Virus record (IMG/VR): IMGVR_UViG_3300028650_000017
Coordinates: 1 to 23,392 of that record
Source of the DNA: a virus
Reading direction: 5' to 3' (one strand)
Length of the DNA stretch: 23,392 nt
The notes beneath the pieces are model-generated. The model saw nothing but the letters and a program-made list of their open reading frames with translations. It was not told where the DNA came from and ran no database searches. The position numbers were made by a program, and so were the translations under genes. This document shows positions 2,975 through 21,805 of the stretch, piece after piece. How positions within the stretch are numbered: the first letter of the stretch is position 1; each line of letters begins with the position of its first letter.

Positions 2975-5900
2975 ATGCGTGCCGGTAACGAATTTGCTGC
3001 ACGCTTCTTTGAAACGAATTTGCTTGCAGCAAAAGATTTTCTGGAAGCACGTGGATGGGATATTGATAACCCGGTCTTGATGCAATATCATGTTGGTTAT
3101 GCTTCGGCGGGAAACGCCTTCCGGTCGTCAGCTCTTGGCGCGAAATACTCTAAAAGCGTACTGATTGATGCCGACTTATTGAAAGAAAATGAAAATAAAC
3201 AGTGTTACGATACATTCCGTGATCGTGTGATATTTCCTTATTATGACCTTCAAGGAAGAATAGTTGGGTTTACAGGGCGTATCGTTACGCCTAAAGAGAA
3301 TGTCGGTAAATACATCAACACGGGTAATACAGCATTATTTACAAAGGGGAATAATTTATATGGTATATATCAAGCGAAACAGGAAATAAGCCGTTGTAAT
3401 AGCGTTTATATTGTTGAGGGGCAATTTGATGTATTGTCCATGGTCAATGCAGGTGTTAAAAATGTCATTGCCGGAAGTGGATGTGCATTCACCGATGCGC
3501 AAGTTCGGCTTATACATCGACTCACAGACAATGTCGTTCTCATGTATGATGATGATGTGGCCGGAGCAAAAGCCTCTTTGGTAAATTGTGAATCTCTATT
3601 GAAAGCAGGCATTACGGTAAAGTGTATTATTATCCCGGATGGAATGGATCCGGATGAACTCGCAAGGAAGGAAAAAGATAATCTTCCTATTTGGCTTAAA
3701 AATAGAACCTTAGATTTCGTTACATATTTCTATGATATATTGCTAACCACCCCTAATCTCTCTCATGAAGAAACAGAGAAACGTGTCGATAAAATATGCA
3801 ATCTTATCGCCTCTTTGCCTTCCGAATTTCAAAAAAACTCATATATTACTGATTTGGCCTCACTGACCAAAATCAATGCAGAGATATTAATAAACAAAGT
3901 TAGATCAATTAGGAAAAAACTTCCGGCTGAAGATAAACCGATAAAGGCAGGGATATACGGTATAGAGGAACTAAAAGAATCGTTCTCAGCTTCAGATGAA
4001 GTAGAAATATTTTATGATTATGATCTATTCCTTGACCAATATGGCACAAAGCCGGTTCTTTATATTACTGGTGTTCCATCTGAATCAAACGTACAACTAC
4101 TTAGGCAAGTCGCGCAGAAATTCATTGTGAAGAATATTTCTATAGAAGATCATTCTCTTGAAGGTGGTGAACCTGATGAGTTACTTTCACTTAAAGCCTT
4201 ATTTCAGTCCGGCTATGATATTCTTATAGAAAAAGAAGAGCAACCTCTTATCTTTCTCCAATATTATGTAAGACTATATTCTGTATTTCTGAGGGAATAC
4301 CTTGGTGAAAAAACGCCTTATTTGAATCAAGTAATGGAGATGATCAGCTATGCTCCTGATCCCGTTCGTTTAGTTAATAAGTCCGATTTCAAAACAAGAT
4401 TAGAGATCACAGAAAAAACATACGATGGATTGCTCAAACCGTATGTTGATCGACGAAAATCTTTAATTAAAAACACGAAACTATCTAATAATGATGATCT
4501 ATTCGATCAAGACGAATTACCTGATTATGTTGAAGATAAATACCACGAGTTATTCCACACTTATGGCTTTTATCCGAGACTTAATAAGGATGGTATACCG
4601 GTATGTTATATGTTCAGAAACGAGAAAGGTGGTTATACACAAGTTGCTGACTTTTACCTTGAGCCATTGTTGCATATCTATGATAAAGACCCAGAGCAGA
4701 ACCGTCGTATATTTAAAATAAATAGAAGATATTACAAGAAGCCACTATATGTAGAATGGATATCAAAAACATTGAATAAGCTATCACTCATCAAGGATAA
4801 TATTATAAATCTTGAAGCTGTGAACTTTACGAATGGCGAGGAGAAGCATTGGACGAAAATACAAGAAGGTATGAGTAGGCATTATGTATTGTGCAATGAG
4901 ATTTCAGTATACGGGAACCAACAAACGAACGGCTTGAGCCGAAATGAGGACGAAATGTTTTTCGCATTTTCTAACGCTATTTTCCATTTCGTAAATGGTA
5001 AAGCCCGCGTTGACCGCGTCGATGAGCTTGGTGCCGTTGATCACAATGCACAAAATTATTACTTGCCAGCCTTTAGTACAATCTATTCCGGAATGGGTAA
5101 GCATGATGAGAAATATGAAAATATATCTCAACTCTATTATTACGATGTACCTGTTGAAAAACAATGCTCTTTCAAAAAATGGTCATGGTTGATGGATAAT
5201 GTCTATAAAATAAATGATAATGGTAAGTGGGCACTTCTATATTCCATAATGTGTGCTTTCCGAAGCAATATTCATGCTATTGACCGCTTGTTTACTGCAT
5301 TGTTTTTTATAGGGCCTACTAATGCCGGTAAAACCCAGATAATGATTTCAATTCGAAGTTTGTTCATTTCTCCCAATGTACCTATATTCAATCTAAATAT
5401 GGGTACTGATGCTGTGATGAGCACGCAGATAGGTACGTTCAGAGATGTTCCTATTGTCTTGGACGAATATAACAATAGACAGATATCTGATTTCAAGTTT
5501 CAGGCCTTAAAAAGTATTGTTTATGATGGAGATGGCCGTCAGAAACGTAAGGCTACTGGAACAAAAGAAGTTGAGACCGATAAAGTTTTTGCACCGGTTA
5601 TAATTGGTGGGCAAGAGACGCCACAGAGAGATGATAATGCGTTGATGAACCGTGTGATTATTTGCGAAGTGAAACTTCCTAGTCGATCACGTACATCTGA
5701 GGAGGTTGATTTATTCACGGAATTGAAAGAAATAGAAGATCCAGAAAAGATAGGGTTGAGTAATGTACTTTTCGAAATTTTGAAGCTCCGCCCTGTGGTA
5801 ATGGATCACTTTAGGGAGGCGAAAAAACAATGTTACAATGAACTGAAAGCCTGCCTGTCGCAGACAGGAGAAATAGACCGTTTAATGAAGACATGCAGCC

Positions 5901-6589
5901 TATTTCTTGCAATGTGTAAACTCATCGAGAATTATACTGAATTAGAATTGCCATTCAGTTATACTGAATTTTTTAAAACAGCAATAGATAAGATCCGGAC
6001 ACAAATGGACATGATATCGCACACCGATAAGTTGGCCATCTTCTTTAAGGCAATGGATGTAATGATTGATTCACACAACATAGTTGAAGGTCGTGACTTC
6101 GCTATTGGGACTCCTTCAAAACTTACCATTAAAGTTCCTGGTGGAGATAAACAAGAAATATCTCTTGCGCCAGGAACGCATGTACTTTATCTTCGAATAA
6201 GTGCCGTATATACTCAATTTGCTCGTAGCTCATTTAATACCGAAGATAGTAATCAATCTACGATAGAACAGAATCTTCGAAGCCATCGCGCTTATCTTGG
6301 AGCTATGAGCTCACATAAATTCACTTGGGAAGAAACGGTTGAAGTAACACATGATGATCCAAATAAAATAGATTCTGCAGCTCTCAATCAAATGAAAGCA
6401 GCTGGAATAAATGTGGGTATTGATAATACAATGGTTCGAAAACGCATTAAGAAAAGCGTCCCAACAAGCTGTATCGCACTTAATTATGACATGTTCAAGG
6501 AATTCTATGATATAGACCTTACACGTGCTAATCCTGATGCAGAACAATTTTTAAAAGATACGCAAGATGATGAAGATGTACCATTTTAA
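2975..6589 (+). CDS. TOPRIM primase / SF3-like helicase (1204 aa)
   Basis: The N-terminal half is the DnaG RNA-polymerase domain. FRDRVIFPYYDLQGRIVGFT lies around residues 81-100, KYINTGNT around 112-119, and the TOPRIM catalytic residues are E148 (VEGQFD), D192/D194 (YDDD) and the PDGMDPDE motif at 221-228. The C-terminal part carries an ATPase. Walker A is GPTNAGKT at about 780-787, Walker B is VPIVLDE (D830/E831), and a downstream NALMNRVI segment resembles the arginine-finger/sensor region of SF3-type helicases. The protein therefore probably unwinds phage DNA and primes its synthesis. The middle (about 250-700) is not recognised. Its zinc finger is encoded separately just upstream. ATG 2975 is the first usable start after the amber codon, and gene 6601 follows 11 bp later. 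Confidence 0.85.
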   Translation: MRAGNEFAARFFETNLLAAKDFLEARGWDIDNPVLMQYHVGYASAGNAFRSSALGAKYSKSVLIDADLLKENENKQCYDTFRDRVIFPYYDLQGRIVGFTGRIVTPKENVGKYINTGNTALFTKGNNLYGIYQAKQEISRCNSVYIVEGQFDVLSMVNAGVKNVIAGSGCAFTDAQVRLIHRLTDNVVLMYDDDVAGAKASLVNCESLLKAGITVKCIIIPDGMDPDELARKEKDNLPIWLKNRTLDFVTYFYDILLTTPNLSHEETEKRVDKICNLIASLPSEFQKNSYITDLASLTKINAEILINKVRSIRKKLPAEDKPIKAGIYGIEELKESFSASDEVEIFYDYDLFLDQYGTKPVLYITGVPSESNVQLLRQVAQKFIVKNISIEDHSLEGGEPDELLSLKALFQSGYDILIEKEEQPLIFLQYYVRLYSVFLREYLGEKTPYLNQVMEMISYAPDPVRLVNKSDFKTRLEITEKTYDGLLKPYVDRRKSLIKNTKLSNNDDLFDQDELPDYVEDKYHELFHTYGFYPRLNKDGIPVCYMFRNEKGGYTQVADFYLEPLLHIYDKDPEQNRRIFKINRRYYKKPLYVEWISKTLNKLSLIKDNIINLEAVNFTNGEEKHWTKIQEGMSRHYVLCNEISVYGNQQTNGLSRNEDEMFFAFSNAIFHFVNGKARVDRVDELGAVDHNAQNYYLPAFSTIYSGMGKHDEKYENISQLYYYDVPVEKQCSFKKWSWLMDNVYKINDNGKWALLYSIMCAFRSNIHAIDRLFTALFFIGPTNAGKTQIMISIRSLFISPNVPIFNLNMGTDAVMSTQIGTFRDVPIVLDEYNNRQISDFKFQALKSIVYDGDGRQKRKATGTKEVETDKVFAPVIIGGQETPQRDDNALMNRVIICEVKLPSRSRTSEEVDLFTELKEIEDPEKIGLSNVLFEILKLRPVVMDHFREAKKQCYNELKACLSQTGEIDRLMKTCSLFLAMCKLIENYTELELPFSYTEFFKTAIDKIRTQMDMISHTDKLAIFFKAMDVMIDSHNIVEGRDFAIGTPSKLTIKVPGGDKQEISLAPGTHVLYLRISAVYTQFARSSFNTEDSNQSTIEQNLRSHRAYLGAMSSHKFTWEETVEVTHDDPNKIDSAALNQMKAAGINVGIDNTMVRKRIKKSVPTSCIALNYDMFKEFYDIDLTRANPDAEQFLKDTQDDEDVPF

Positions 6590-7268: not shown

Positions 7269-8234
7269 ATGGACACAATGAAAGAAAGTGATAAAATTTT
7301 TGCCAAAGTCGCAGAGTCTGTTGAATGGACAGAAACGCAATCTATTGAGCAAGCAACAGAGCTTCTTAAGAAATTAAGAAATGATACGAATGGGTTAGTT
7401 ATTGTCGATTTTTTAGATTCTGAATGTTATGATTGCATTGGTGGTGTTGAATCTGATAATGGTTTCTTAAAAATCCTATGGAAGGACTTTGGGACAGCAA
7501 ATGGAGAAGGGAAAAAGTGTTCTGAAGGTCTAAGCCTAAACTCTACCTTGATTAAATTCAAGGAATTGAGAATCGAAAAGACTCAAAGATTTCCTGTATT
7601 TATATTGAGAGGTTATGCGCTAAAAGATAAAGAGATAAAAAAATATCTAGAAAAAGATAGTACTGAATTTAAAATATATGACTTTCAAGACAACTTCTCT
7701 AAAATGGTCATGAGGAAAATAAATGGTCTATATGAAACTTATAGATGTTTAAATACACCCATTTTCTCAATGATAATAATTCCGAAAAACGGTAACATCT
7801 CTTCCTCTTCTTCAAAAAAAAGATTATTTTATTACAATCTTTCAGATTCAATTGTAAGATTAAATAAAGTAAAAGGCGAACTTGAAAATGAAGAACTAGT
7901 TGATGCAGACTTAATATGTGAAAAAGCAAACTCTATTCGTAGAATTCTTGAATATCTTCTGAAAGTTGAGTTATGTTACAGATCTAGTAAATTAAATGTA
8001 AAAAAGGATTACTCTATGCTAATGCTTGGGGAATTAACGAGCCTTATAAAGCCATTTATAAACGAAACGATTAACGATTTATTGAGACAAATAGTTGTCT
8101 TGTCAAACGAATTATCTCATGAATCGGGAAAGCCGATTAAACGAGAGACAGTTTTGGCTCTTAGTCAAATGACTATTTTTTATGCAGACCGGCTACAATC
8201 AATAATAAATAGAAACCCATATTATGAAGAATAA
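7269..8234 (+). CDS. Accessory protein with possible HEPN-like C-terminus (321 aa)
   Basis: I do not recognise the whole protein. The N-terminal half (1-170) alternates strands and helices (NGLVIVDFLD at 41-50, RFPVFILRGY at 107-116). The C-terminal ~100 residues are helical with EKANSIRRILEYLLKVEL (218-235) and LLRQIVVLSNELSHESGKPI (271-290). The pattern ANxIRRxLE followed by NxLSHES recalls the helical C-termini of several defence-type ATPases and HEPN-like proteins. A strict RX4-6H motif is not present, and there is no ATPase domain. It has its own promoter, AT-rich codon use, and lies between phage modules, as expected of a cargo gene carried by a prophage. A defence or immunity role is inference only. 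Confidence 0.55.
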   Translation: MDTMKESDKIFAKVAESVEWTETQSIEQATELLKKLRNDTNGLVIVDFLDSECYDCIGGVESDNGFLKILWKDFGTANGEGKKCSEGLSLNSTLIKFKELRIEKTQRFPVFILRGYALKDKEIKKYLEKDSTEFKIYDFQDNFSKMVMRKINGLYETYRCLNTPIFSMIIIPKNGNISSSSSKKRLFYYNLSDSIVRLNKVKGELENEELVDADLICEKANSIRRILEYLLKVELCYRSSKLNVKKDYSMLMLGELTSLIKPFINETINDLLRQIVVLSNELSHESGKPIKRETVLALSQMTIFYADRLQSIINRNPYYEE

Positions 8235-8478: not shown

Positions 8479-9318
8479 ATGAATAAGAAAGTTGCACTTT
8501 TTTTTATGTTTAATTTAATTACATTTTTTGTATTCCCTCAAAAAATGGTTGATAATATTAATAGAGACCCAAGGAAAAAGGATTTTGCAAATGTATTTTG
8601 GAACAGAGAATATACACTATTTGATCTATTAACTGACGAGCCTATTTCTCCTGACAAAAATAGATGCTATGATATCTGGTATTCAAGCAATGAAGATCCG
8701 ACGCCACATCATAAGCTTTTTAGCATAGATGAGCTCATTCATTTTTATTTCTATAAATTTAAAAATGAAGGAAATTGCGTGAAGTGGTGTGATAGCAAAA
8801 GTGGTAATGACCATTTATTAGATCCGGATACTTATAAAAAGATACTATTAGAAAAACTTGATATTTATAAAGGATGTTATCAAAGAAAAGATTATATCAA
8901 AATGTCATCCTTTGTTTTGCCCATTTTAATACAAGATATAGGAGGTGTGGATAAATTCGTAGAGCAAATGAAGAATTTACCGCATTTTTTTGAATCAAAA
9001 GGTATGCAAGTTGATATGTCGGCCAGCACATTTGGAGAGCCTGAACAATTTTATAAAAGTGGAAATTCAATAATTTCCCTTGTTTGCACAAAGTTGCCTA
9101 TTTCAATAAATAATCAAAAAGGTTTTATTGAAAGTTCAATAATTTGCTTTTCTAAAGATGAAGGTGCAACATGGTTTTTTATAGAGGGAGACAATGAAGG
9201 TAAAAGCTATATTGCAGCTACTAATCCTGAAATAATTCAAGAGTTAGATGTTCCAATTCCCCAAATAAGAATCAATGGTAAAATATTATACCAAAAAAAT
9301 GGTAGTTGGCAACATTAG
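8479..9318 (+). CDS. Exported protein of unknown function (279 aa)
   Basis: ATG 8479 is chosen because it starts a typical signal peptide, MNKKVALFFMFNLITFFVFP (basic n-region, hydrophobic core, likely cleavage around residues 20-24). The frame is open further upstream, but those codons do not look like signal sequence. The mature part is soluble, with Cys residues at spaced positions and a C-terminal beta-rich region containing SSIICFSKDEGATWFFIEGD. That stretch resembles a pattern I associate with secreted Bacteroidales proteins of unknown function. Export to the periplasm or cell surface suggests a lysogenic-conversion or superinfection-exclusion role; this is inference. The stop is TAG. 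Confidence 0.55.
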   Translation: MNKKVALFFMFNLITFFVFPQKMVDNINRDPRKKDFANVFWNREYTLFDLLTDEPISPDKNRCYDIWYSSNEDPTPHHKLFSIDELIHFYFYKFKNEGNCVKWCDSKSGNDHLLDPDTYKKILLEKLDIYKGCYQRKDYIKMSSFVLPILIQDIGGVDKFVEQMKNLPHFFESKGMQVDMSASTFGEPEQFYKSGNSIISLVCTKLPISINNQKGFIESSIICFSKDEGATWFFIEGDNEGKSYIAATNPEIIQELDVPIPQIRINGKILYQKNGSWQH

Positions 9319-9427
9319 AAGTGTTGCAAGATAAATGCCTTGTTCTAAAAATCTGATAAAAAGGCTTATAACCAATACCATTTGATCTATTCTAAGTTCA
9401 TGATTATGAATTATATGTTAATTTATA

Positions 9428-9435
9428 TATCTTTG
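9428..9435 (+). promoter_or_regulatory. Promoter -7 box (TATCTTTG)
   Basis: TATCTTTG followed by CAG is a good match to the Bacteroidales -7 element and lies 32 bp before the signal-peptide ATG at 9467. No clear -33 TTTG is found. A small inverted repeat, TTCAT-GATT-ATGAA (9397-9410), sits at the expected -33 region and could be an operator. Confidence 0.5.
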
Positions 9436-9466
9436 CAGAGATATTAAAATGCATATAAAAACGTTT

Positions 9467-9868
9467 ATGAAAAAGTTATTATTAACGCTAGCCATTGTGC
9501 TAGCTTCTACTGCGGGTGCGTTTGCACAAACTCCTTACAAAGTATTTTGTGAATTAGTTGGAGAAGGGAATCTTTTTGGCACGAAAGTGAAGATATCCAT
9601 TGACCTTGGTAAGAAAGGTAGTTGGAAAACCTATGAAAGCAAGTTGGTTGATGGAAATGGAAAAGAGATAGAATTCAACTCAATGGTTGATGCTATGGAT
9701 TATATGGGAAAATTGGGATGGGATTTCAATCAAGCTTATGCCATAACTGAAGGTGGAATTTCTAAGCAAAATGTTTACCATTGGCTATTGAGTAAATCAG
9801 TGACGAGTGATGAACAAGTTGGTGAAGGAATTATTACAAAAGAACAATATAAAGAAACCCATAAGTAA
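9467..9868 (+). CDS. Small exported protein (133 aa)
   Basis: Starting at ATG 9467 gives a canonical signal peptide, MKKLLLTLAIVLASTAGAFA followed by QTPYK, with an AFA|Q cleavage site. An ATG six codons upstream (9449) is possible but would only add MHIKTF. The mature protein is about 113 residues and soluble, with a strand-rich first half (YKVFCELVGEGNLFGTKVKI) and an acidic C-terminus. It has its own promoter upstream and a strong terminator 10 bp downstream, so it is a free-standing single-gene unit, typical of a phage moron. It is probably periplasmic. Function unknown. Confidence 0.7.
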   Translation: MKKLLLTLAIVLASTAGAFAQTPYKVFCELVGEGNLFGTKVKISIDLGKKGSWKTYESKLVDGNGKEIEFNSMVDAMDYMGKLGWDFNQAYAITEGGISKQNVYHWLLSKSVTSDEQVGEGIITKEQYKETHK

Positions 9869-10644: not shown

Positions 10645-10690
10645 TCTGATAATAATTTTGTTATCTCAATTATTCTTCCAATATTTGCAG

Positions 10691-10890
10691 TGCTAAATAC
10701 ACTGGATGAATTATCATCTCCGATGAGCGCGGTTCAGCTCAAAGATATTCTTTCGGGCTTTTTTTATGCCTGAAAAATGATACGGCGGTTGCCTATCCTT
10801 AATCTTTTTATTGCTCTTCGGAGGATAATCTGGTGTGTTTAGCGACGGGATATGGCAGCCGTTTTTCTGCCTAAATGCTAAACACATCAG
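10691..10890 (+). ncRNA. Structured leader RNA with two exclusive folds (candidate switch)
   Basis: A long helix can form from 10692-10705 with 10830-10843 (14 pairs, 3 of them G-U), 10710-10715 with 10824-10829 (6 pairs) and 10718-10723 with 10818-10823 (6 pairs). It encloses hairpins TGAGC/GCTCA (10724-10741), TTTCGGGC/GCCTGAAA (10751-10775) and GGC-GGTT-GCC (10784... 10793). The 3' strand of the outer helix, 10830-10843, can instead pair with 10877-10890 (14 pairs, one G-U), ending 3 nt before ATG 10894, with GGCAG/CTGCC (10854-10871) nested inside. The two pairings exclude each other, as in translational riboswitches or attenuators. A promoter-like TTTGCAGTG (10684-10692) lies just upstream. 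Pairings are seen in the sequence; the switch role is inferred. Confidence 0.6.
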
Positions 10891-10893
10891 GTT

Positions 10894-11175
10894 ATGGAAA
10901 TTAAATTATCCATCAACAAACAACCGGCTAATATCTATATTGTCGGTGTTATCAAAAGCTTCATGAATAGTGAAGTCAAATCATTCTCTCGTACTGCCGG
11001 GATCAGTATCACAATCAAAGAATTGCTTGCCACGCTGCAGCTAATCATTATCTTATTTATTTCGTTGGCCATGGTTAATACAATGCATGCGCTCCTGGTC
11101 ATTGCCGGATTCTCACTCATGGTATTCAGCTTTGCTATATTCAAACGTTTTGGGAAGAAAGGATGCATAGCATGA
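10894..11175 (+). CDS. Small membrane protein, first gene of the switch operon (93 aa)
   Basis: A 93-residue protein with a soluble N-terminus (MEIKLSINKQPANIYIVGVI) and two transmembrane helices, about residues 44-62 and 64-84, ending in a basic FKRFGKKGC. It begins 3 nt after the stem that would block its start in one fold of the leader RNA. It ends in ATGA with the next gene, so the operon is translationally coupled. G+C is higher than in the accessory block just upstream, suggesting it belongs to the phage backbone. Function unknown. A holin-like or other membrane role is conceivable from size and topology, but nothing supports it directly. Confidence 0.6.
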   Translation: MEIKLSINKQPANIYIVGVIKSFMNSEVKSFSRTAGISITIKELLATLQLIIILFISLAMVNTMHALLVIAGFSLMVFSFAIFKRFGKKGCIA

Positions 11176-11495
11176 AATATTTTATATACAGTATTGTTGG
11201 ATATGCCAACGTGAACAAAAAGGGGCAGGAACTAAAAGATTATGTTATAGATAAATACAAAAATTGCCTTGTTCCGGACAAGCAATCTTATCAAGAAATT
11301 ATTGCCGATGTGAAACAGAAAACAGATTCTCTTAATAACAAGTATCCCCGGACCAAAAAACTGGTTTTAAAAGAATATCATGACGGCTTCATTGTGAAAC
11401 CAGCGGAGGGTAACGATGAATACATGCTACTTGCCAGCTATCATCAAGTGGAAAAAGAATATGTATCATTAAGCGCGAAAGGAGATAATTTATGA
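11172..11495 (+). CDS. Hypothetical protein, second gene of the switch operon (107 aa)
   Basis: ATG 11172 forms an ATGA overlap with the stop of the upstream gene and is preferred over the in-frame ATG at 11163. The protein is soluble and Lys-rich, starting MKYFIYSIVGYANVNKKGQE, with a helical centre (SYQEIIADVKQKTDSLNNKY) and a beta-rich end (HDGFIVKPAEGNDEYMLLAS). No motif is recognised. It shares an ATGA overlap with the third gene too, so the three products are probably made in fixed ratio and may act together. Confidence 0.6.
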   Translation: MKYFIYSIVGYANVNKKGQELKDYVIDKYKNCLVPDKQSYQEIIADVKQKTDSLNNKYPRTKKLVLKEYHDGFIVKPAEGNDEYMLLASYHQVEKEYVSLSAKGDNL

Positions 11496-11791
11496 CTGTC
11501 AAAATGAATCAGGATGGCAGTGTGGCCATAACTCCTTACGATTGCGCAAATATGGCTATTGTCAATAACGAAGCCGTTGAATTGATAGAACTATTCCAGG
11601 AAGATAATTGCTTGTTTCTTGATGACTTTGCAAATGACTTAGATGGGTATATCTTTGTGGTGATTAATTCTTCTTCTCTTGGGCAAGATGAAAAAGATCG
11701 CCGGCTACACAACTTGATGGATATGAAAAGATTCTTCAAATCGCTAAGCACAAGAGAAGTTGATAGCAATTATTTAGTGCCAATTGTTTAA
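11492..11791 (+). CDS. Hypothetical acidic protein, third gene of the switch operon (99 aa)
   Basis: A 99-residue acidic, soluble protein. It begins with a beta-like TVKMNQDGSVAITPYDCANM, then an acidic helix (NEAVELIELFQEDNCLFLDD) and a C-terminal helix with basic residues (DEKDRRLHNLMDMKRFFKSL). The size, strong negative charge and lack of membrane segments are compatible with a small inhibitor or DNA-mimic type protein, but that is speculation. It overlaps the preceding gene by four bases and is followed 28 bp later by a strong terminator that ends the operon. Confidence 0.6.
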   Translation: MTVKMNQDGSVAITPYDCANMAIVNNEAVELIELFQEDNCLFLDDFANDLDGYIFVVINSSSLGQDEKDRRLHNLMDMKRFFKSLSTREVDSNYLVPIV

Positions 11792-12494: not shown

Positions 12495-12971
12495 ATGATT
12501 ACGAAAATTAACATCAGGCCATATCTGGCTGAGTATATTTATGGGAAATATGGAACATGTGACGAACAATCTGTACAGTTCCCTGATTCATTGGATATAT
12601 ATCATATCATCTATGATTTGTTGGAAAAGCGGCCAGAAGGTGTCAGTCCTGCTGATGACGGTAATCTAGCCATCCATTTACCCCAAAGAAGATTAGGTAA
12701 AAATCCCGAAACCTACAATTTTCTATCTATTCGTGCTAAAAATATCATTGCGGAGCATATCAAGCGTATATTTGACAATGATCTGCATGCCTGCTTTGAG
12801 GAAAATCTCCAGAACGGACGTGATTACGAAAATATCGAAGTCGCTTTCTTGTTTATGAAAAAATATAAGATAAACAGCATCTCGGAAGACGCCCTGTTGA
12901 AAAATTATTATCGCTGGCGCGACGCTGTTCGGAAGAAAAGCAAGCGAAGAAAATATAAACGCGTGGCTTAA
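12495..12971 (+). CDS. Hypothetical phage protein with basic tail (158 aa)
   Basis: A soluble, mostly helical protein of 158 residues starting MITKINIRPYLAEYIYGKYG, with a central SIRAKNIIAEHIKRIFDNDL and a strongly basic C-terminus (RRKYKRVA preceded by KKSK). The basic tail and helical make-up suggest DNA binding. Its start lies 46 bp after the last octamer of the origin-like cluster, so binding to those repeats is an attractive idea. No initiator motif is recognised. From memory similar proteins occur in Bacteroidales phages without assigned function. Confidence 0.6.
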   Translation: MITKINIRPYLAEYIYGKYGTCDEQSVQFPDSLDIYHIIYDLLEKRPEGVSPADDGNLAIHLPQRRLGKNPETYNFLSIRAKNIIAEHIKRIFDNDLHACFEENLQNGRDYENIEVAFLFMKKYKINSISEDALLKNYYRWRDAVRKKSKRRKYKRVA

Positions 12972-13129
12972 TGATGAATATTAATGTTAATTCGGATAAA
13001 TGACGTTAAAAACAGGGGTAAAAAATCACCGACAAAGTGTATGGATTTGTCCCTTTTTATGGGTATTTATGGCGGAAAAACGTCCTATATGTGGAGAACT
13101 TATTGCAAATCAATTAATTATAATAGAAA
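12972..13129. other. Gap before the head genes
   Basis: 158 bp without a convincing gene. A short frame (13000-13200) is open across it but runs into the next gene out of frame and has no protein-like character. It probably holds the promoter of the late operon; I cannot place the box with confidence. Confidence 0.35.
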
Positions 13130-13450
13130 ATGGAGCAATTTTCACAACTGATTCAAGTTATTCCGTTGTCAACCGGCGAATCAATCTCATTGATTGTTGA
13201 CAAATTCTCGTTTGAGCCTACATCAGAAGAAGCATCTCAAGGAACTCTATATGATTGTGCTCTTACATTATATACTACTGATACTATTTCCTCTCCATTT
13301 TCAAAAGGAACCTTCAAGGGAACGGTGTTGCTAAATAATGGAGATGTCGCAATAGGTTCTTCCGATTACCCGGCTCATATCAAAATAGATCCATTATTGA
13401 ATGTTACCAGGATAACCCTCTCATGCAAGCAGCCTAATAGCCCGATCTGA
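13130..13450 (+). CDS. Hypothetical beta-rich protein before the head protease (106 aa)
   Basis: A 106-residue protein rich in beta-type residues and Ser/Thr (QVIPLSTGESISLIVDKFSF, then GTLYDCALTLYTTDTISSPF), with a GTVLLNNGDVAIGSSDYP segment and no membrane span. This composition is typical of small virion components such as decoration or head-completion proteins. It lies 52 bp before the S49 protease and is likely the first gene of the late head operon. Function not recognised; virion association is inferred from composition and position. Confidence 0.55.
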   Translation: MEQFSQLIQVIPLSTGESISLIVDKFSFEPTSEEASQGTLYDCALTLYTTDTISSPFSKGTFKGTVLLNNGDVAIGSSDYPAHIKIDPLLNVTRITLSCKQPNSPI

Positions 13451-13502
13451 CGTACTTTATATAGCTGGTAGTGCTCGTTATCTTTACCAAAAAATAATAA
13501 AG

Positions 13503-14408
13503 ATGGCGAAAGATCACATACCCGCTTTTATCATTCATTCAAACCAGCTTATGATGATGAATGAATCCTATCTTCAGGCCGTTATGGCCATTGATAAGCA
13601 TGACAGAATAAAATACAAAGAAAGCATGCTGAAAAAAATCAGCATGCTTCAGGATAACAACAATACCATTCCCCTTACTACCAGTTACGACTCCCCGGAT
13701 ATCAATCCAAATTCAATGGCGTATTATTTCGTCGATGGTGCAATCTGTGCCCAGGATGATTATGGTAGGTATTTTTCTTCTAAAGGCTTCGAACAGGATT
13801 TCCTAGCGGCCGAACAGAATGATAATATCAACGTCCACTTCCTTCATGTGAGCTCCGGAGGTGGTGAGGGGTGGTATCTTGATCGCTTAAGTGAAACCTT
13901 AAGTAATGCACAAAAGCCTATTTATGCAATGATAGAGAGGATTTGCGGATCAGCTGCTTATTATATTGCCTGCCATGCTGATACATTAAAGGCATTGACA
14001 CAGAATGACCTGATCGGGTGCATAGGATCAATGTGCAAGGCGTATGATATTTCGGGGATGCTGGAACAAATGGGCATCAAAGAGCTTAGCCTGTATGCAG
14101 ATCAATCTGATCTGAAAAACAAAAAATATAACGATGCCATGACAGGAAAACCGGAACAGTATATCACAGAAGAGTTGAACCCGATGGCTCAACAGTTCAT
14201 AGATGAAGTTCGGAATAGCCGGTCACAATTAGCAGACCTGCCTGATGATGATCCAATATTAAGAGGGGAGACTTTCACGGCGGATGTGGCAGTAGAGAAT
14301 GGTTTGATTGATGGAATCATCACCCTGCCTGAAGCTTTGATAGAAGCTTATCAAATGGGAATGGATTTCTCGAAAAAGCAAAGTTTGTGTAGTATGTTCA
14401 ACAATTAA
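13503..14408 (+). CDS. S49-family prohead protease (301 aa)
   Basis: The fold of the ClpP/SppA-like S49 peptidases is visible: HFLHVSSGGGEGWYLDRLSE (112-131; the SSGGG oxyanion/strand region), then ERICGSAAYYIACHADTL with the likely nucleophile Ser150, IGCIGSMCKAYD (171-182), and a C-terminal GETFTADVAVENGLIDGI of the type that ends S49 domains ('G..fta..A...GLiDgi'). Phage S49 proteases mature the prohead by removing the scaffold or N-terminal part of the capsid protein. The capsid gene begins 12 bp downstream and carries a long N-terminal extension, as expected for such a substrate. The ~70-residue N-terminus before the catalytic domain may target the prohead. Confidence 0.85.
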   Translation: MAKDHIPAFIIHSNQLMMMNESYLQAVMAIDKHDRIKYKESMLKKISMLQDNNNTIPLTTSYDSPDINPNSMAYYFVDGAICAQDDYGRYFSSKGFEQDFLAAEQNDNINVHFLHVSSGGGEGWYLDRLSETLSNAQKPIYAMIERICGSAAYYIACHADTLKALTQNDLIGCIGSMCKAYDISGMLEQMGIKELSLYADQSDLKNKKYNDAMTGKPEQYITEELNPMAQQFIDEVRNSRSQLADLPDDDPILRGETFTADVAVENGLIDGIITLPEALIEAYQMGMDFSKKQSLCSMFNN

Positions 14409-14420
14409 ATAAAACACGAA

Positions 14421-16502
14421 ATGTTCGAAAAGATTAACAAAATTCTTAACAACCTAGGCTTTCTTGATAAAGCAAAGGCTGGGACTTTGAGTAAAGCCGA
14501 ATGGAAACTGATTGCAAAATCTTACAAAGAGGAATACAAATCAGATTTCAATGAGGATATAGCGAAAGAGGATGACGAAAAGCAGAAAGTTCAGATGGCA
14601 AGTCTGCAAAAGATTCTTTCTTCTGTGGCTCCTGTTGCTCAAGATGATCCTGAAGATGAAGCACAAGGTGATAAAAAGCCTGAAACACAAGATTCAGCTA
14701 CTCCAGCAGGAGCACAAGCTGCTAAAGAGCCTGATACAAGTGTGAAAGAAGATGATATGGCAGCTGCTATCAAAAGTGCAGAAACATTGGTCGCTAAAAA
14801 CGCAGCTCTTCAAAAGCAAGTAAACACCTTATCCAATCAAGCAGCTGTAGATCATCCGGAAACGGTTGCAGTTGCAGTTAATATAGATAATATGTCTAAT
14901 AATACTACCAAAAAATCTTTGTTCGGGATTGATAATCCTATTTTTTCAATGGAAAAACGCTGGAATAAAATTTCTCATGATCCGCGTATTGTTGCAACGC
15001 TTTCTGATCCGGGAGAGCAAGAAGTGGTTGCTTTCAAAGCTGATATGCGATCTTATTCTGCGTCACTACAGCAGAGGTATAATCACCTTTTGCAAAACAA
15101 ACAACTTGATCCGAAGAAACTTTCTGCCGGAGAGTTTTCTACAAACACCACATCTGTGGATGGAAGTTCAATGGGAAATCTTGCCGATCAATATATCGTG
15201 CGTCGCCAGGATGCATTGATTGCTAGAATTATTCAGATCAAGTCCGTATCTGACCTGTTCCCTACTCAATATGGTGTACAGGATAGAACATTGATGTTTA
15301 GTGCTTATTTTGAAGAAGTTTCACAGGCTTACCAAAAAGGCAAGGTTTGGAAAGGCGGAATGAAGATCGAACCGGAATGGGGATATGTTGATGATGCCAT
15401 GGTGAAAGTTATGTTCGGCCCAATGAAAGATTTGGAACGAAAATATATCGGATACCTTAATAAAGAAAATTCTGATCCTATCAAATGGAGTTTGATTGAA
15501 TTTGCTTTGATCAACGTTTACACAAAAATGCAAATGGAGCAAAATACCCGTCACATTATGGGCATTTACAAAACTCCGGAAGATGGTGTTGCAGGTAATG
15601 CTCTCAATGCAGGTACTGGTGTATACTACACTCTTGCTAGAGCATATCATGAGTTATCGCTGAAATTGAATGACAGTGCTGCTTATCGTACTTATGACAA
15701 AAGCAGCTTTGTTGATTCAGTCAAAGAGTTTGTTTCGGATGTTATGTCTCAATTAGATGAAGGTGCCGATTTATCGGGATCATCTATTTATTTGAATAAG
15801 AATCATTACAGCTGGTGGCTTGAGGGATTACGTGCAAAATATGGATTGCAGACCGATTTCACTACCGGACCTACCGCTTACGCCAATGTAGTACCGGATA
15901 CAGAATTACCTATTAAATGGGTTCCTAATCTAGGACAGGAAACCTTGATGTTTATTCAAGAACCTGGAAATATTACATTCCTTGAATTTGCAGCCGGGGA
16001 GATGTTGAATGTGAAGATGAAAGACGATATGGAAATCGTATACGGATGGTCTACCTGGAAAGAAGGTTGTGCACCATCGTTCGCCGGTCCTCATTTTTTG
16101 AAAAAAGATGACCTTGATGCCAATAACTATAGCTTGCAACGCATTTTCATGAACAAACCGGCTGCTACAGTGGCTGCTGATGCAACAACTATCACAGTCG
16201 ATAGAAATCGTCGTTGGTATTTGACCGGAACAAACACAAAAGCTACGGCCATTACTAATATCGTAGGGGCTAAAGAAGGTGCAGCTTATATCATTGAAAT
16301 AGGGGATGCAGCTTTCCCCAGTTCAATAGACAAAGCCGGAAAGTTTGCAACTATTAGCAGTGCATTCACTCCTACAGCTGTAGGAGATTACATCATGGTA
16401 ATTCTTAACTCTGAAGGTAATTTTGATGAATTGGAACGTAGTATAGCCGGCACTCGTGCTGTAAATGCCAAATTACAACCGAATGTTCCAGGTGCGCGAT
16501 AA
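14421..16502 (+). CDS. Major capsid protein with built-in scaffold-like N-terminus (693 aa)
   Basis: Three regions can be seen. Residues 1-165 are charged, Ala/Glu/Lys-rich and coiled-coil-like (AAAIKSAETLVAKNAALQKQ), resembling a scaffolding or delta domain. Residues about 180-570 form the body: motifs such as FSTNTTSVDGSSMGNLADQY, a VSDLFPTQYG segment, GYVDDAMVKVMFG, and HYSWWLEGLRAKYGLQTDF are compatible with an HK97-like capsid. Residues about 580-693 are Thr/Ala-rich and beta-like and may be a decoration domain on the outside. The S49 protease encoded just upstream probably cleaves the N-terminal part. A terminator follows the gene. Capsid identity rests on size, neighbours and fold-like features, not on a diagnostic motif. 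Confidence 0.7.
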   Translation: MFEKINKILNNLGFLDKAKAGTLSKAEWKLIAKSYKEEYKSDFNEDIAKEDDEKQKVQMASLQKILSSVAPVAQDDPEDEAQGDKKPETQDSATPAGAQAAKEPDTSVKEDDMAAAIKSAETLVAKNAALQKQVNTLSNQAAVDHPETVAVAVNIDNMSNNTTKKSLFGIDNPIFSMEKRWNKISHDPRIVATLSDPGEQEVVAFKADMRSYSASLQQRYNHLLQNKQLDPKKLSAGEFSTNTTSVDGSSMGNLADQYIVRRQDALIARIIQIKSVSDLFPTQYGVQDRTLMFSAYFEEVSQAYQKGKVWKGGMKIEPEWGYVDDAMVKVMFGPMKDLERKYIGYLNKENSDPIKWSLIEFALINVYTKMQMEQNTRHIMGIYKTPEDGVAGNALNAGTGVYYTLARAYHELSLKLNDSAAYRTYDKSSFVDSVKEFVSDVMSQLDEGADLSGSSIYLNKNHYSWWLEGLRAKYGLQTDFTTGPTAYANVVPDTELPIKWVPNLGQETLMFIQEPGNITFLEFAAGEMLNVKMKDDMEIVYGWSTWKEGCAPSFAGPHFLKKDDLDANNYSLQRIFMNKPAATVAADATTITVDRNRRWYLTGTNTKATAITNIVGAKEGAAYIIEIGDAAFPSSIDKAGKFATISSAFTPTAVGDYIMVILNSEGNFDELERSIAGTRAVNAKLQPNVPGAR

Positions 16503-16527
16503 TCACAATAAAACACGATAGATAAAT

Positions 16528-16557
16528 CAGGGTAACGCGAAAGCGTTACCTGATTTT
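16528..16557 (+). terminator. Rho-independent terminator after the capsid gene
   Basis: GGTAACGC (16531-16538) and GCGTTACC (16543-16550) pair perfectly around a GAAA tetraloop, extended by CAG/TG, then TTTT. It sits 26 bp after the capsid stop and probably lowers expression of the genes downstream relative to capsid. Confidence 0.8.
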
Positions 16558-16578
16558 AATTAAAAACAAATTACGATC

Positions 16579-17598
16579 ATGACAAAATTTCAAAAAAAAT
16601 CGATCACTCGAGCAATGCGTGCTTATAAAAAAGATATGACGCGCAATTTCAATAAGATGCAGAGTATGTTTTTCTTGCTAACGGCCGTTGTATTGGTTGT
16701 TGCTGTTCTTTTCTCTTTTATGTTTCCTGAATCGGCTCACGGCTGCCTTGTTTGTGCAGGGACTTCCTTAGCCGGTATGGCTGCAGTGGGGAATGTGGAT
16801 GACGTAGAGGATGTACAGACTTCTGGAAATGATATAGGATATCAGGTTTATTTGATTAACCTCAATCAGGTTGATAGAACTGTTGCTTTTCCGTCTCCCA
16901 ATGGAAATAGAGAATTGGGCAGTATACCTATGTTGGCAGGAGAATTCTTTCATTATTTTATCGCACACTCGTTCCCTGAATATGAAAGCTCTATTGAAAA
17001 AGGTGATATCACAACAACAGGAACTAATACGCTGACGCTTATCATGGGAGGCATGAGGAATAACCTTATCAACTTCCAGGAAGAGTTCACAGGCGGGAAA
17101 TTCATTGTTATATTTAAAGAGAAAACCTCTGGAGACTGGAAGGTTCTGGGATCGATTGATGATCCGATTGTTCTGAAAAAGTCGGAGAATAAGCATAATA
17201 AAGACGGTCGTTATGTAACGTTTACTTTCGAACGTTCAAGTGTAAAACAATATTACACCTATGTTGGAGCTTTCTCCACCGTTCCTCCTACGGTAAATGC
17301 TGTAGACTCTGATACACTTGTTGTAAAACCTGGTATTGATCAATATGAAATACCGGCAGGTTCAGCTGCTGCTTATGCAATTTCTAAAATATCCGGAATA
17401 ACAGCCAGCGATAAAGGACGTAACATAACGTTGATCGGAACGGCTGTTGCAAATCCAGCCTCTATTTCAGACGGAACACTATTCACTCTTGAAGACGGTG
17501 CATCTTGGACTGCGAAAGCTGGAAGCAGAATCACCTTACGCATCCTTGATACTACAACTTTGGTTGAAGTGGATGGAACAAGAGTGCAGATTGCCTGA
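16579..17598 (+). CDS. Putative virion protein with N-terminal membrane segment (339 aa)
   Basis: Residues 31-50 are strongly hydrophobic (FFLLTAVVLVVAVLFSFMFP) after a basic N-terminus, so the protein starts with a membrane anchor or signal. Residues from about 67 on read as a beta-rich structural domain (GYQVYLINLNQVDRTVAFPS, FIVIFKEKTSGDWKVLGS), with a C-terminal segment (ITLIGTAVANPASISDGTLF) resembling an Ig-like or tail-fibre-type fold. Position right after the capsid suggests a virion component. A membrane helix on a virion protein is odd; an internal start at Met67 would give the soluble form. Function is not recognised. Confidence 0.5.
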   Translation: MTKFQKKSITRAMRAYKKDMTRNFNKMQSMFFLLTAVVLVVAVLFSFMFPESAHGCLVCAGTSLAGMAAVGNVDDVEDVQTSGNDIGYQVYLINLNQVDRTVAFPSPNGNRELGSIPMLAGEFFHYFIAHSFPEYESSIEKGDITTTGTNTLTLIMGGMRNNLINFQEEFTGGKFIVIFKEKTSGDWKVLGSIDDPIVLKKSENKHNKDGRYVTFTFERSSVKQYYTYVGAFSTVPPTVNAVDSDTLVVKPGIDQYEIPAGSAAAYAISKISGITASDKGRNITLIGTAVANPASISDGTLFTLEDGASWTAKAGSRITLRILDTTTLVEVDGTRVQIA

Positions 17599-17639
17599 TA
17601 CTTGTACTCTAAATATAAATAGTTTTGACAATTTGTTTT

Positions 17640-17669
17640 GCATCCCGGTATTTTTGCCGGGGTGCTTTT
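17640..17669 (+). terminator. Rho-independent terminator
   Basis: GCATCCCGG (17640-17648) pairs with CCGGGGTGC (17657-17665) across an 8-nt loop with one G-T pair, then TTTT. It lies between the 16579 gene and the repeat-arm protein. Confidence 0.85.
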
Positions 17670-17683
17670 AAAGTAAAAGCAAC

Positions 17684-18358
17684 ATGAATTTTAAAGAGAA
17701 AAAAATAGCTTACGAGAGACTCTTGTCTCCCACTCAGGCCAAACATGACATTGAGCTTTTGAAGAAAGTTTTCAAGGACGAAAGCAAGATAATCACCTTT
17801 GCTCGTGATCCTATCAGATATGCCGGTGATATTCTATATGCTCTTCTTGAGCACAAGACACCCGAGCAAATCGTTCAGAACAGACGTAAGAAGCAAGCTG
17901 ATGCCGACAAAGCCGCCGATCAAGCTGCCGCTGACAAGGTTGCTGCAGATAAGATTGCCGCCGATCAAGCTGCCGCTGACAAGGTTGCTGCTGATCAAGC
18001 TGTTGCCGACAAAGCTGCCGCAGATAAGATTGCTGCCGATCAAGCTGCTGCTGACAAGGCTTCTGCCGATAAGATTGCTGCCGATCAAGCTGCCGCTGAC
18101 AAGGCTTCTGCCGATAAGATTGCTGCTGATCAAGCTGCTACTGACAAGGCTGCCGCAGATAAGATTGCTGCCGATCAAGCTGCTACCGACAAGGCTTCCG
18201 CAGATAAGATTGCTGTTGATCAAGCTGCTGCTGACAAAGCTGTAGATCAAACAGTCGATGAAGCTATAGCTCAAGAACACAATGCTGAAGAATCAACAGA
18301 ACAAATTGTAACTGAAGCTGCTGTCTCAGTAAAGGATGAAGAAAAAAAAAGCGAATAG
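17684..18358 (+). CDS. Protein with Ala-rich pentapeptide-repeat arm (224 aa)
   Basis: Residues 1-70 form a small helical domain (MNFKEKKIAYERLLSPTQAK; RDPIRYAGDILYALLEHKTP). Residues ~71-192 consist of 5-residue units of the form A-(A/S)-D-(K/Q)-(A/V/I), grouped in a 15-residue period such as AADQAAADKASADKI. This would form a long, highly charged helix like the TolA linker. The last ~30 residues are acidic. The frame ends with TAG soon after an A9 run (18342-18350); a -1 shift there would continue into the next gene, giving a protein of about 385 residues. It follows a terminator and precedes the packaging genes. Function unknown; the arm may be a flexible spacer in a virion or scaffold protein. 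Confidence 0.65.
   Translation: MNFKEKKIAYERLLSPTQAKHDIELLKKVFKDESKIITFARDPIRYAGDILYALLEHKTPEQIVQNRRKKQADADKAADQAAADKVAADKIAADQAAADKVAADQAVADKAAADKIAADQAAADKASADKIAADQAAADKASADKIAADQAATDKAAADKIAADQAATDKASADKIAVDQAAADKAVDQTVDEAIAQEHNAEESTEQIVTEAAVSVKDEEKKSE
17894..18250 (+). repeat. In-frame 45-bp / 15-bp tandem repeats
   Basis: Roughly eight imperfect 45-bp units encode 15-residue repeats built from three 5-residue units. Wobble differences (GCC/GCT, GAT/GAC) between units suggest selection at protein level or older duplication. Long open frames on the minus strand and in another + frame across this stretch are by-products of the repeat. Confidence 0.85.
18342..18350 (+). other. A9 slippery run, candidate -1 frameshift site
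   Basis: Nine A in a row, read in the zero frame as A_AAA_AAA, a classic slippery heptamer. The -1 frame is open from 18340 through the tail of the repeat protein into the gene at 18415, with no stop until 18837. No strong downstream stem is visible; polymerase slippage on A9 is an alternative mechanism. Confidence 0.5.
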
Positions 18359-18414
18359 TAACTAAAGATGAAGAATATCCACTAATAGACTGGAAGAATC
18401 TTTCGGATAAACGA

Positions 18415-18837
18415 GTGCAATTCGCTACGATCATTTACAACGATCGTATCAATACATATAATCAAATGAAGGTTCTTGATCAGGAGCTCGATAAAAAGCC
18501 TAAAACGTCAAGCGTGAAGGAAATGGCCGAGCTTCGTATCAGGAACCTTCTTTGTTTTAAAGAACTTCAAAGCTTGAATGACAAAGGTAAATTCCTTTAT
18601 CAACACCCGTTGATATCTTGTATGAGCGAACGAGAAGAATTGAAAAAACTATTGAGAAACAATCCGACAGAATTTCTACACCGGTACAAGTCGGCTTCAA
18701 ACAATCTGCGTAGGTATAAAGGGTATGTGAAAAAGAAACGGTCGAAACTCTACAATGAAGACAAAGCCCATTTCAAATATTACCAAGCTTTAGTTGATGT
18801 ATTCAACAATATAATTCAAGAAAAAAATGGAAACTGA
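18415..18837 (+). CDS. Helical protein, possibly the C-terminal part of a frameshift fusion (140 aa)
   Basis: As a separate gene it can only start at GTG 18415, because the frame upstream has no ATG. The preceding 25 codons are nonetheless open back to 18340 and encode a protein-like stretch (YPLIDWKNLSDKRVQFATII across the GTG). That frame meets the A9 slippery run in the repeat-arm gene, so this may normally be made as a fusion. The protein is soluble, Lys-rich and helical (LDQELDKKPKTSSVKEMAEL; RYKSASNNLRRYKGYVKKKR), with a basic middle that could bind DNA. It overlaps the next gene by 11 bp. Function not recognised. Confidence 0.55.
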   Translation: MQFATIIYNDRINTYNQMKVLDQELDKKPKTSSVKEMAELRIRNLLCFKELQSLNDKGKFLYQHPLISCMSEREELKKLLRNNPTEFLHRYKSASNNLRRYKGYVKKKRSKLYNEDKAHFKYYQALVDVFNNIIQEKNGN

Positions 18838-19153
18838 TTCCCTTATTAAAATAGACAGTTCCTACCTTAATCGTGTAGAGGAACTGGCATCGCTCGGATA
18901 TTCCCCTGGGCGTATTGTCTCTATTATTGACCTTGACAGGACGGAGTCAGCCGTGTTGTTATTAAAGCTGAATCTTCCTAATGATGAGTTTTACGAGGCA
19001 TATCATAAAGGATTAAGCAAGGGCGAATATAAGATGGATTCCTCTTTGCACAAACAGGCGGACGACGGTGACATTGATGCGATCAAACTTATTCAGGAAC
19101 GCAACGCCTTGAGGCAGGAGCAAGAACTTCGCAAAAAACTATTTGGTGTATGA
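18827..19153 (+). CDS. Putative small terminase subunit / HTH packaging protein (108 aa)
   Basis: The N-terminal half has an HTH-like pattern (NRVEELASLGYSPGRIVSII, with DRTESAVLLLKLNLP). The second half reads GLSKGEYKMDSSLHKQADDG, then DIDAIKLIQERN. The pattern 'G...g......L...A..GD..AikL' is often seen in small terminase and related HTH phage proteins. Small terminases recognise the packaging site and deliver DNA to TerL. Its position two genes before TerL, with tight overlaps (11 bp upstream, ATGA downstream), supports that role. Assignment is by motif shape and context; the next gene could equally share the function. Confidence 0.55.
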   Translation: METDSLIKIDSSYLNRVEELASLGYSPGRIVSIIDLDRTESAVLLLKLNLPNDEFYEAYHKGLSKGEYKMDSSLHKQADDGDIDAIKLIQERNALRQEQELRKKLFGV

Positions 19154-19803
19154 GTAATTATCTTGATTGTATAGAAAAACTGAATCCGGATATCATTGAT
19201 AATTTTCTTGAAACCGGAAAATCAGCAGGCATTCCTGAAGATGTACAAATGTTCCTCAAGCAATTGCAATGGGCAGCTGAAATATATGAGTACGAACGTA
19301 ATATTTCTCGTGCATCTACAGACTTGCGTCGGAGAATAGTTGCTGAACAGCAGATATTAGTACCTGTACGTACTTGTAAAGCTCGTATTTATGCGGCGAT
19401 CCGCTATTTCAACATCGATAATAACGTATCTACTAAGGTATGGGCCAGCAATTATGCCGACAAATACGAGGATTTAGCCAAAATAGCAGTATCAACAGGT
19501 GAGTATAAGACTGCTCTTATATGCTATGATAAGGCCCAAGAGTGCCGAATAAAAGCAAGTGAGGCGGCTGAAACGGACAAAGACTGGGCTCCTGTATTTC
19601 TGATCAACGACAATATACCGATTGAGAAGATGGGATTCAAAAAGAAGTCTCTTAAAGAGATTGCCCGTAAGAGTAACGAGGGGTATTATATACGAATGAT
19701 TGATTCGCTTCCCATTGATCCGGAAGAAAAGAAACGATTACTTAGAGATGCCGATATTGAGGAAGCTAAAATGGTGGAAATAAATGAAGACGGAGAAGAT
19801 TAA
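19150..19803 (+). CDS. Packaging-associated protein preceding TerL (217 aa)
   Basis: A helical, charged protein of 217 residues (MSNYLDCIEKLNPDIIDNFL; LKQLQWAAEIYEYERNISRA; YKTALICYDKAQECRIKASE). It contains a TPR-like or coiled-coil middle and a C-terminus rich in acidic residues. It shares ATGA with the preceding gene and overlaps TerL by 20 bp, so it is translationally coupled to both. It may be part of the small terminase or an adaptor in the packaging motor. No catalytic motif is visible. Confidence 0.5.
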   Translation: MSNYLDCIEKLNPDIIDNFLETGKSAGIPEDVQMFLKQLQWAAEIYEYERNISRASTDLRRRIVAEQQILVPVRTCKARIYAAIRYFNIDNNVSTKVWASNYADKYEDLAKIAVSTGEYKTALICYDKAQECRIKASEAAETDKDWAPVFLINDNIPIEKMGFKKKSLKEIARKSNEGYYIRMIDSLPIDPEEKKRLLRDADIEEAKMVEINEDGED

Positions 19804-21553: not shown

Positions 21554-21556
21554 AAA

Positions 21557-21805
21557 ATGACTTCTAAAGACATAATAATAGTAGGTTTTGACATCGAAAA
21601 GATATTTAAGTCTTTGCCTTTCAGTTGCTTGAATGATCCTAAAAAAACAAAAAAAGCGACATCTGACGTTTGTGTCTACGCCCCACTAAGTCTGGCGGGT
21701 GATGCGCACCTTACTCAAAGCATGGGAAATATGGTTGAGGGCTGCGCCCCCCCACCGGGGGTGTCCTTGGGAATCATCATCATCAAATGTAAATTCGTGA
21801 CATGA
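21557..21805 (+). CDS. Small hypothetical protein between TerL and portal genes (82 aa)
   Basis: 82 residues, starting MTSKDIIIVGFDIEKIFKSL, with a hydrophobic end (SLGIIIIKCKFVT). The region encoding residues 64-70 (CAPPPGV) is unusually G+C-rich, with a C7 run followed by G5 (about 21746-21760), out of character with the surrounding DNA. The start is 3 bp after the TerL stop, and the end shares ATGA with the next gene, which supports a real gene. The C-terminal part of the reading is less protein-like than the start. Confidence 0.4.
   Translation: MTSKDIIIVGFDIEKIFKSLPFSCLNDPKKTKKATSDVCVYAPLSLAGDAHLTQSMGNMVEGCAPPPGVSLGIIIIKCKFVT

Follow-up and report, generated by a model that had tools for sequence, protein, structure and literature searches.

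Positions 10692-10893 of the window (the whole stretch of DNA analysed, a 23,392-base virus record) constitute one member of a structured-RNA family carried by phages and prophages of Bacteroidales, bacteria of the gut and the mouth. We consider it probable (at roughly 0.6), judging from comparison of the homologues, that the element is a bistable leader controlling translation of the first gene behind it and hence entry to the late operon. The comparison demonstrated mutually exclusive pairings, selection at the RNA level, adjacency to a start codon and a position at the late operon, all at the level of sequence. If this reading is right, the element would be a common regulatory RNA for late genes in phages of Bacteroides, Porphyromonas, Barnesiella and their relatives, in which little is known of late-gene control. 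The design is unusually clean, with one strand, two sets of partners and covariation behind each, and the family would provide dozens of natural, differently addressed RNA switches usable as parts.

Organization of the leader

The element is preceded by a promoter of the Bacteroidales sigma-ABfr type (10657-10687, + strand, as are all parts described below), with TTTG at 10657-10660 as the -33 element and AATATTTG, ending at 10687, as the -7 element. The assignment is based on the sequence, the homologues and the published consensus of sigma-ABfr promoters (PMC7366714). The original prediction had placed a promoter-like sequence here and had let it end at the first base of the outer helix; the promoter is present, but its -7 element TATTTG stops five bases short of the helix, and transcription is therefore expected to start at about 10692. 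In nearly all homologues a promoter of the form TTTG...TAnnTTTGCAGT abuts arm a. In B. thetaiotaomicron, most 5' UTRs are far shorter than this leader (median 32 nt; PMC7366714).

The expected 5' end of the RNA is formed by arm a (GCTAAATACACTGG, 10692-10705), the partner of A' in state I. Its end overlaps hairpin H0 (GATGA-ATTA-TCATC, 10705-10718), of which equivalents with changed stems were recognized by eye in the homologues. This is followed by hairpin H1 (GAGC...GCUC, 10725-10740), defined from the family alignment, and by hairpin H2 (GGGC, a U-rich loop and GCCU/GCCC, 10755-10771), the most conserved part of the family. Strand b (CGGTTGCCTATCC, 10786-10798) pairs with b' across A' and thus forms a pseudoknot with a.A', as indicated by duplex energies. 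Hairpin H3 (CUC-UUCG-GAG, 10814-10823) lies immediately 5' of A'; read by eye, its stem changes in homologues to UUGC/GCAA, CGC/GCG, AUGC/GCAU or UCACGC/GCGUGA. Arm A' (CTGGTGTGTTTAGC, 10830-10843) is the shared switching strand, and strand b' (GGATATGGCAGCCG, 10848-10861) pairs either with b (10786-10798, state I) or with c' (state II). Directly 3' of b' there is a U run (10862-10866), a possible terminator tail of b.b', and then the c' strand (CTGCC, 10867-10871), which in state II pairs with GGCAG of b' (10854-10858). Arm A3 (GCTAAACACATCAG, 10877-10890) is a near-copy of a, and its pairing with A', which takes in 10825-10843, reaches 10895 and covers the start codon of gene 1.

Two states can be drawn from these parts. 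State I combines a.A' with b.b' (the pseudoknot), and state II combines A'.A3 with b'.c' as a single nested long hairpin at the start codon. The states are mutually exclusive, as each base of A' or b' can be used in one of them alone. Two additional helices of 6 pairs, originally proposed to close the domain, are not conserved by the family, which instead conserves H0, H1, H2 and the UUCG hairpin, together with b.b' and b'.c', neither of which had been listed.

Conservation of the competing pairings

The strand 10830-10843 forms 14 pairs with 10692-10705, three of them G.U, or 14 pairs with 10877-10890, one of them G.U. The sequence and a repeat search reproduced both pairings exactly as predicted, and the repeat search extended the second to 10825-10843/10877-10895 (19 nt at 89%). 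The complementarity is three-way: A' is complementary to both a and A3, and b' is complementary to b and, over 5-8 bases, to c'.

Over 56 copies, 97.6% of cells were paired in a.A' and 100% in A'.A3, compared to 62.5% in shuffles and 34-48% when the anchored arms were slid, all raw percentages being inflated because the arm anchors were chosen by maximal pairing. The unbiased control is a swapped-partner test on sites chosen by the core motifs alone. In this test, the best cis pairing exceeded the 95th percentile of swapped partners in 47/52 non-redundant sites for a.A' and in 51/52 for A'.A3, a set which includes two chance pattern matches (L105 and L112) that were rejected as family members. 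Changes on both sides were found in 220 cells of a.A' and 224 cells of A'.A3, with 11 of the 12 pairs changing on both sides among the 56 copies, and the covariation scores were 0.85 and 0.90, respectively, versus 0.17. Whole-element alignment with MAFFT misplaces the end of A', and the arm statistics were therefore computed on anchored, ungapped arms. Conservation of both pairings in homologous leaders of Bacteroidales phages had been set beforehand as the test of the prediction; the sequences demonstrate that both are maintained by compensatory change in unrelated contexts.

For the inner pairings, the cis value exceeded the mean of swapped partners in 53/59 copies for b.b' and in 43/59 for b'.c', numbers that are weakened, not helped, by the automatic b' finder having misplaced b' in four copies (L091, L093, L111 and L134). 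The b.b' duplex comprises 12-14 pairs, with a mean energy of -22.8 kcal/mol in cis versus -18.3 kcal/mol for swapped partners.

The three-part repeat is visible in the DNA too, and the arms could in principle be operators that change along with their regulator. A DNA element, in which the repeats serve as protein-binding, recombination or replication sites and RNA pairing is incidental, is nevertheless very improbable. Over the 14 columns of a.A', non-Watson-Crick cells comprised 40 G.U versus 4 A.C (p = 1.7e-8, an optimistic value as the copies are related), while a DNA-level repeat would give equal numbers, and therefore the selected molecule is the coding-strand (+) RNA. This strand asymmetry contradicts a DNA element or MITE, and the argument from G-U pairs made in the original prediction is borne out. 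Moreover, b.b', b'.c' and the hairpins covary as well, the unrelated arms of two copies in one genome mean that no single protein reads both, and the element is co-directional with an ORF, mostly 17-21 nt before its start. Insertion with target duplication, which would make a and A3 direct repeats, was also considered and rejected as the main reading: A' matches both arms, and the first arm bases are constrained (GCTAAA, GCGAAA, GTCAAA).

Folding of the two states

RNA folding, proposed earlier as a check, gave -74.5 kcal/mol for the window leader (z = -5.3 versus shuffles). In a nested model the probability of a.A' was 0.998 without A3; with A3 it fell to 0.01 and that of A'.A3 was 0.99, in agreement with the earlier claim that the folds exclude each other and that one of them would hide the start region. 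Nested folding of RNAs cut before A3 gave a.A' above 0.5 in 53/56 copies. When A3 was included, A'.A3 exceeded 0.5 in 40/56 and a.A' was kept in 15/56, state II not being the nested minimum in 16/56. It should be noted that this folding is nested and without pseudoknots; which of the two is the resting state can thus not be read from the stabilities. The mean duplex energies were -22.3 kcal/mol for a.A' and -25.3 kcal/mol for A'.A3, the latter being stronger in 40/57 copies and weaker in 5 (median difference 2.6 kcal/mol). In many copies the pairing of A' with A3 extends a few bases beyond that with a.

With 14-20 uninterrupted pairs in addition to b'.c', the state II hairpin reaches a mean energy of -33.7 kcal/mol, a stability that would also suit a plain 5' structure, either protecting the late mRNA or cut by RNase III within this hairpin to yield a mature 5' end. 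RNase III cleavage makes the mature 5' ends of T7 mRNAs. For the element we regard such a role as quite improbable; it gives no reason for the equally conserved a.A' and its exact competition, or for b.b'.

The length and strength of b.b' would also fit a transcription attenuator. According to this reading, b.b' and the U run act as an intrinsic terminator, the promoter mostly yields an RNA of ~175 nt, and the late operon is reached by read-through when a protein or antitermination prevents b.b'. At least 5 T are found within 8 bases after b' in 68/82 copies, and one subgroup (L071, L087) carries a near-textbook CGGCTGTCACCG...CGGTGACAGCCGTTTTTTT. On the other hand, several copies have an interrupted U run (TTTCTCTG, TTCTTGTG, CTTCTCTG), upstream of it b and b' have no competing partner except within the pseudoknot, and the conservation of A3 at the AUG is left unexplained, A3 being transcribed after the decision point. 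A simple terminator scan, which covers loops of 3-8 only, called no terminator. We consider attenuation, the main rival reading, rather unlikely; it could also act together with translational control.

Position at the head of the late operon

In the window, the element separates replication genes (primase, 2975-6589) to its left from late genes to its right. Three small overlapping genes at 10894-11791 open the late block: gene 1 (10894-11175, 93 aa), whose start codon lies 17 nt after the A3 start and whose small hydrophobic product had no PHROGs or Pfam match; gene 2 (11163-11495, 110 aa), the start of which overlaps gene 1; and gene 3 (11492-11791, 99 aa). The three-gene operon of the original prediction is present in the form of these overlapping genes and leads on into structural genes. 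The downstream late genes (12495-22119) include those at 12495 and 13130, an S49 head-maturation protease (13503-14408), a capsid-like gene (14421-16502), a structural gene (17684-18358) and a terminase-like gene (19784-21553); we infer the terminase and capsid roles from gene order and by comparison with BT-TP2, an annotated relative. The protein encoded at 17684-18358 contains a long repeat of the type AADKIAADQAAADK and gave a weak match to a virion structural family.

This position recurs in the family. Counted from the A3 start, the AUG of gene 1 is found at 17-21 nt in 51/56 copies and at 8-12 nt, inside A3, in the other five. In Porphyromonas phage 023a the AUG lies inside A3 in both copies, and one of these is the start of the depositors' CDS. 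A recognized structural or packaging gene was found in the available flank of 48/83 copies, always on the element's strand, typically a tape measure gene at 0.9-3.7 kb or a head protease gene at 0.7-3.5 kb downstream. Genes 1 and 2 fall into many unrelated families without known function, and since they vary in this way, the leader is tied to the head of the operon and not to one product. Owing to the lack of conservation of gene 1, a search with its protein recovered a single contig, nearly identical to the window.

The genes behind the leader also differ in their Shine-Dalgarno (SD) sequences. No such sequence precedes gene 1, either in the window or across the 56 copies. Gene 2 has a correctly placed AAAGGAGG (AGGAG/GGAGG) in 43/56 copies (77%), compared to 13/506 (2.6%) of other ORFs on the same strand, and this sequence overlaps the end of gene 1 (e.g., L003, L030 and L069). 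In the window, gene 2 has GAAAGGA only, before an alternative ATG at 11174, and AAGGAG precedes the start of gene 3 (11478-11494). As outlined in PMC9976891, ribosomes of Bacteroidia ignore SD sequences, because bS21, bS18 and bS6 sequester the anti-SD. The gene for bS21 frequently carries an extended SD of its own, and loss of bS21 gives the ribosome a regulatory function. A strong SD before gene 2 is therefore odd in a phylum whose ribosomes ignore it, and it would make the start of phage translation in a non-SD phylum testable. A search for phage-encoded bS21 in 29 records gave no match over the cut-off. A sub-threshold match to ribosomal protein S21 at 13291-13389 of the window contains a stop and is most likely due to chance.

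Proposed mechanism and comparison with known systems

According to the bistable-leader model, 10692-10893 would be the 5' leader of the late-operon mRNA. State I would form first during RNA synthesis and leave A3 and the AUG free (on). Once made, A3 could displace a from A', since A'.A3 is stronger in most copies, and the long hairpin would then close the start codon of gene 1 (off). The two states may be close in energy, with a factor holding the core (H1, H2, H3 and b.b') or the age of the transcript deciding between them. Translation of gene 2 is probably coupled to that of gene 1 via the stop-start overlap, and the genes behind gene 1 would be translated or not along with it. Structure close to the start codon, up to ~20 nt away, tunes translation initiation in F. 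johnsoniae (PMC6847099). The features of a metastable leader were found by comparison and calculation: competing pairings, of which one is complete earlier in the transcript and the other, made later, is located at the start codon.

Synthesis-ordered alternative pairings of this kind, with one fold exposing and the other hiding the translation start and with covarying competing helices, are known from the MS2 maturation-gene leader, hok mRNA and H. pylori aapA3 (PMC6733600). The element is unrelated to these in sequence and structure and belongs to a late operon of a DNA phage; it also differs in having two competing helix pairs, a pseudoknot among them, and arm sequences peculiar to each copy. 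With trp-type attenuators (1:2 / 2:3) it shares a single strand with two exclusive partners and a GC-rich stem followed by a U-rich stretch, but no conserved leader peptide was seen, and the terminator-like stem precedes the second partner, which is located at the start codon. A leader peptide in the H2 loop (AUGCCC...) was considered and rejected: the ORF lengths differ, and L063 and L066 lack the AUG.

Distribution of the family

A blastn search found two diverged fecal phage contigs (28-42% coverage) with the same order of parts and different arm sequences. Pattern scans with the most conserved stretches extended the family to 83 copies, 56-60 of them non-redundant depending on the cut. The order of parts is promoter, a, H0, H1, H2, b, H3, A', GAC or similar, b', a U-rich stretch, c', A3 and AUG, with three or four hairpins between a and the b/A' region. 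The family forms are CGGCTGCC...CC for b, GGGATATGGCAGCCG for b', a UUCG-type H3 loop and CTGCC for c'. The last varies along with b' in homologues (CTGTC, CTGTAC, CACAC, CCGTATC, GCGCTT) and is absent from some copies (L071, L086, L087 and L129).

Annotated phages with the element are Bacteroides phage BT-TP2 of B. thetaiotaomicron BG12, in which it lies within 16046-16376 of PQ571279.1, and Porphyromonas phage 023a (two copies). A core covariance model, from which the arms were excluded, identified 1-4 copies per phage record, including one in the window, and matched 8/393 sampled Bacteroidales genomes; the element thus belongs to phages. A plasmid collection gave no relatives, and a LoVEphage match was rejected, since it covers the promoter alone. 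One contig labelled as a Clostridium MAG (L051, JAMPBQ010000001.1) carries the element with a Bacteroidales-type promoter and is probably a mislabelled Bacteroidales genome. Locus L128 carries two elements, at 3808 and 4154 on its reverse strand and separated by 346 nt; the second, directly behind the first, is divergent, has b' (GGAACC) and c' strands of unrelated sequence and is followed by a gene 1 of its own.

The conserved core H1-H2-H3-b with competing exclusive helices has the architecture of a riboswitch, a core joined to an expression platform; the unrelated genes 1 and 2 of the members indicate no ligand. As in the original prediction, which could match the leader to no riboswitch class, a search of the window against Rfam 15 covariance models gave no family at curated score, riboswitches, 6S, c4 and Bacteroidales-1 included, the permissive threshold yielding chance-level matches alone (E ~1-10). 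The alternative of a 6S-like RNA, named at that time, was abandoned: 6S RNA gave no covariance-model match, and the 3' arm of the element ends at the start codon. The c4 antisense RNA was rejected in the same way, with no match and a fold different from that of c4, which has three stems and free a' and b' loops. Among 16 homologous loci searched against Rfam, none matched on the element; the sole match, above threshold, was a c4-2 RNA elsewhere in one element-carrying phage contig (L095:8092-8169, - strand). RNAs of the c4 type have been described from Proteobacteria and their phages.

The family probably represents bistable phage RNAs that had not been named, and it has no match in Rfam 15. 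A survey of human microbiomes, covering the same kind of hosts, listed candidate structured RNAs by the thousand and without names, some of them close to phage genes of Bacteroidetes (Fremin and Bhatt 2021, PMC8040213). The Bacteroidetes examples named in its text are 80-132 nt long and have neighbours other than those of the element; a partial earlier listing of the family in its alignments is possible.

Copies within one genome

In several phages the element is present two to four times. Recent copies in the same genome are close in core, linker and gene 1, but their arms have diverged: the arms are 36% identical in phage 023a (promoter 92%, downstream 88%), 36-50% in G034 (downstream 83%) and 50-79% in G007 (downstream 95%), and over four phages the arms are 36-71% identical versus 83-95% downstream. 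Each copy keeps its own three-way match despite this divergence. Between genomes, arm identity at the same core identity averages 0.55-0.62 (0.79 at core 0.90-0.95, two pairs); the arms thus also change fast between genomes, and few pairs underlie the same-genome contrast. Drift would not be expected to make a three-way complementary sequence hypervariable, and a pure cis switch leaves the strong same-genome differences unexplained. Possible sources, any one of which could suffice, are diversifying selection, exchange between phages and template switching between the repeats.

This divergence, found in four phages with near-identical cores, is what would be expected if a terminated or processed leader acted in trans as an operon-specific antisense RNA, with A' pairing to A3 of the mRNA of its own operon; copies in one genome would then need different arms to avoid cross-regulation. 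The mode of action would be that of c4 of phages P1 and P7, an RNA that shares a transcription unit with its target. In the many copies in which A' pairs further with A3 than with a, the extra bases would provide a toehold. Like the element, c4 (RF01695; relative c4-2, RF02944) is a phage leader RNA complementary to a downstream translation start in its own unit, with variable pairing segments within a conserved frame. However, c4 is a ~77-nt RNA processed by RNase P, in which the loops of three stem-loops pair in trans (PMC5320573), whereas A' of the element is held in a helix with a and would be covered by it in a short RNA. In addition, the A' of the intact mRNA, next to A3, should beat a second molecule, and the rapid change of the arms between genomes weakens the same-genome contrast. 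No arm copies were found in the window beyond a, A' and A3, and trans partners of the arms over all contigs showed no excess (29 vs 23 expected). We judge an antisense function unlikely.

Somewhat more plausible, and offered tentatively, is that the arms are copy-specific address tags, kept different by selection, through which RNA pairing switches each late operon independently of the others, either in cis or with the operon's own leader acting in trans. Late genes behind the SD of gene 2 would then depend on ribosomes in a special state or on coupled re-initiation.

In Porphyromonas phage 023a (L159, BK068104.1) the leader and gene 1 are present as tandem copies, at 7835-8090 and 9019-9250. 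The second gene 1 (9219-9554, + strand) is unannotated; in its place the annotation shows minus-strand ORFs that run across the element.
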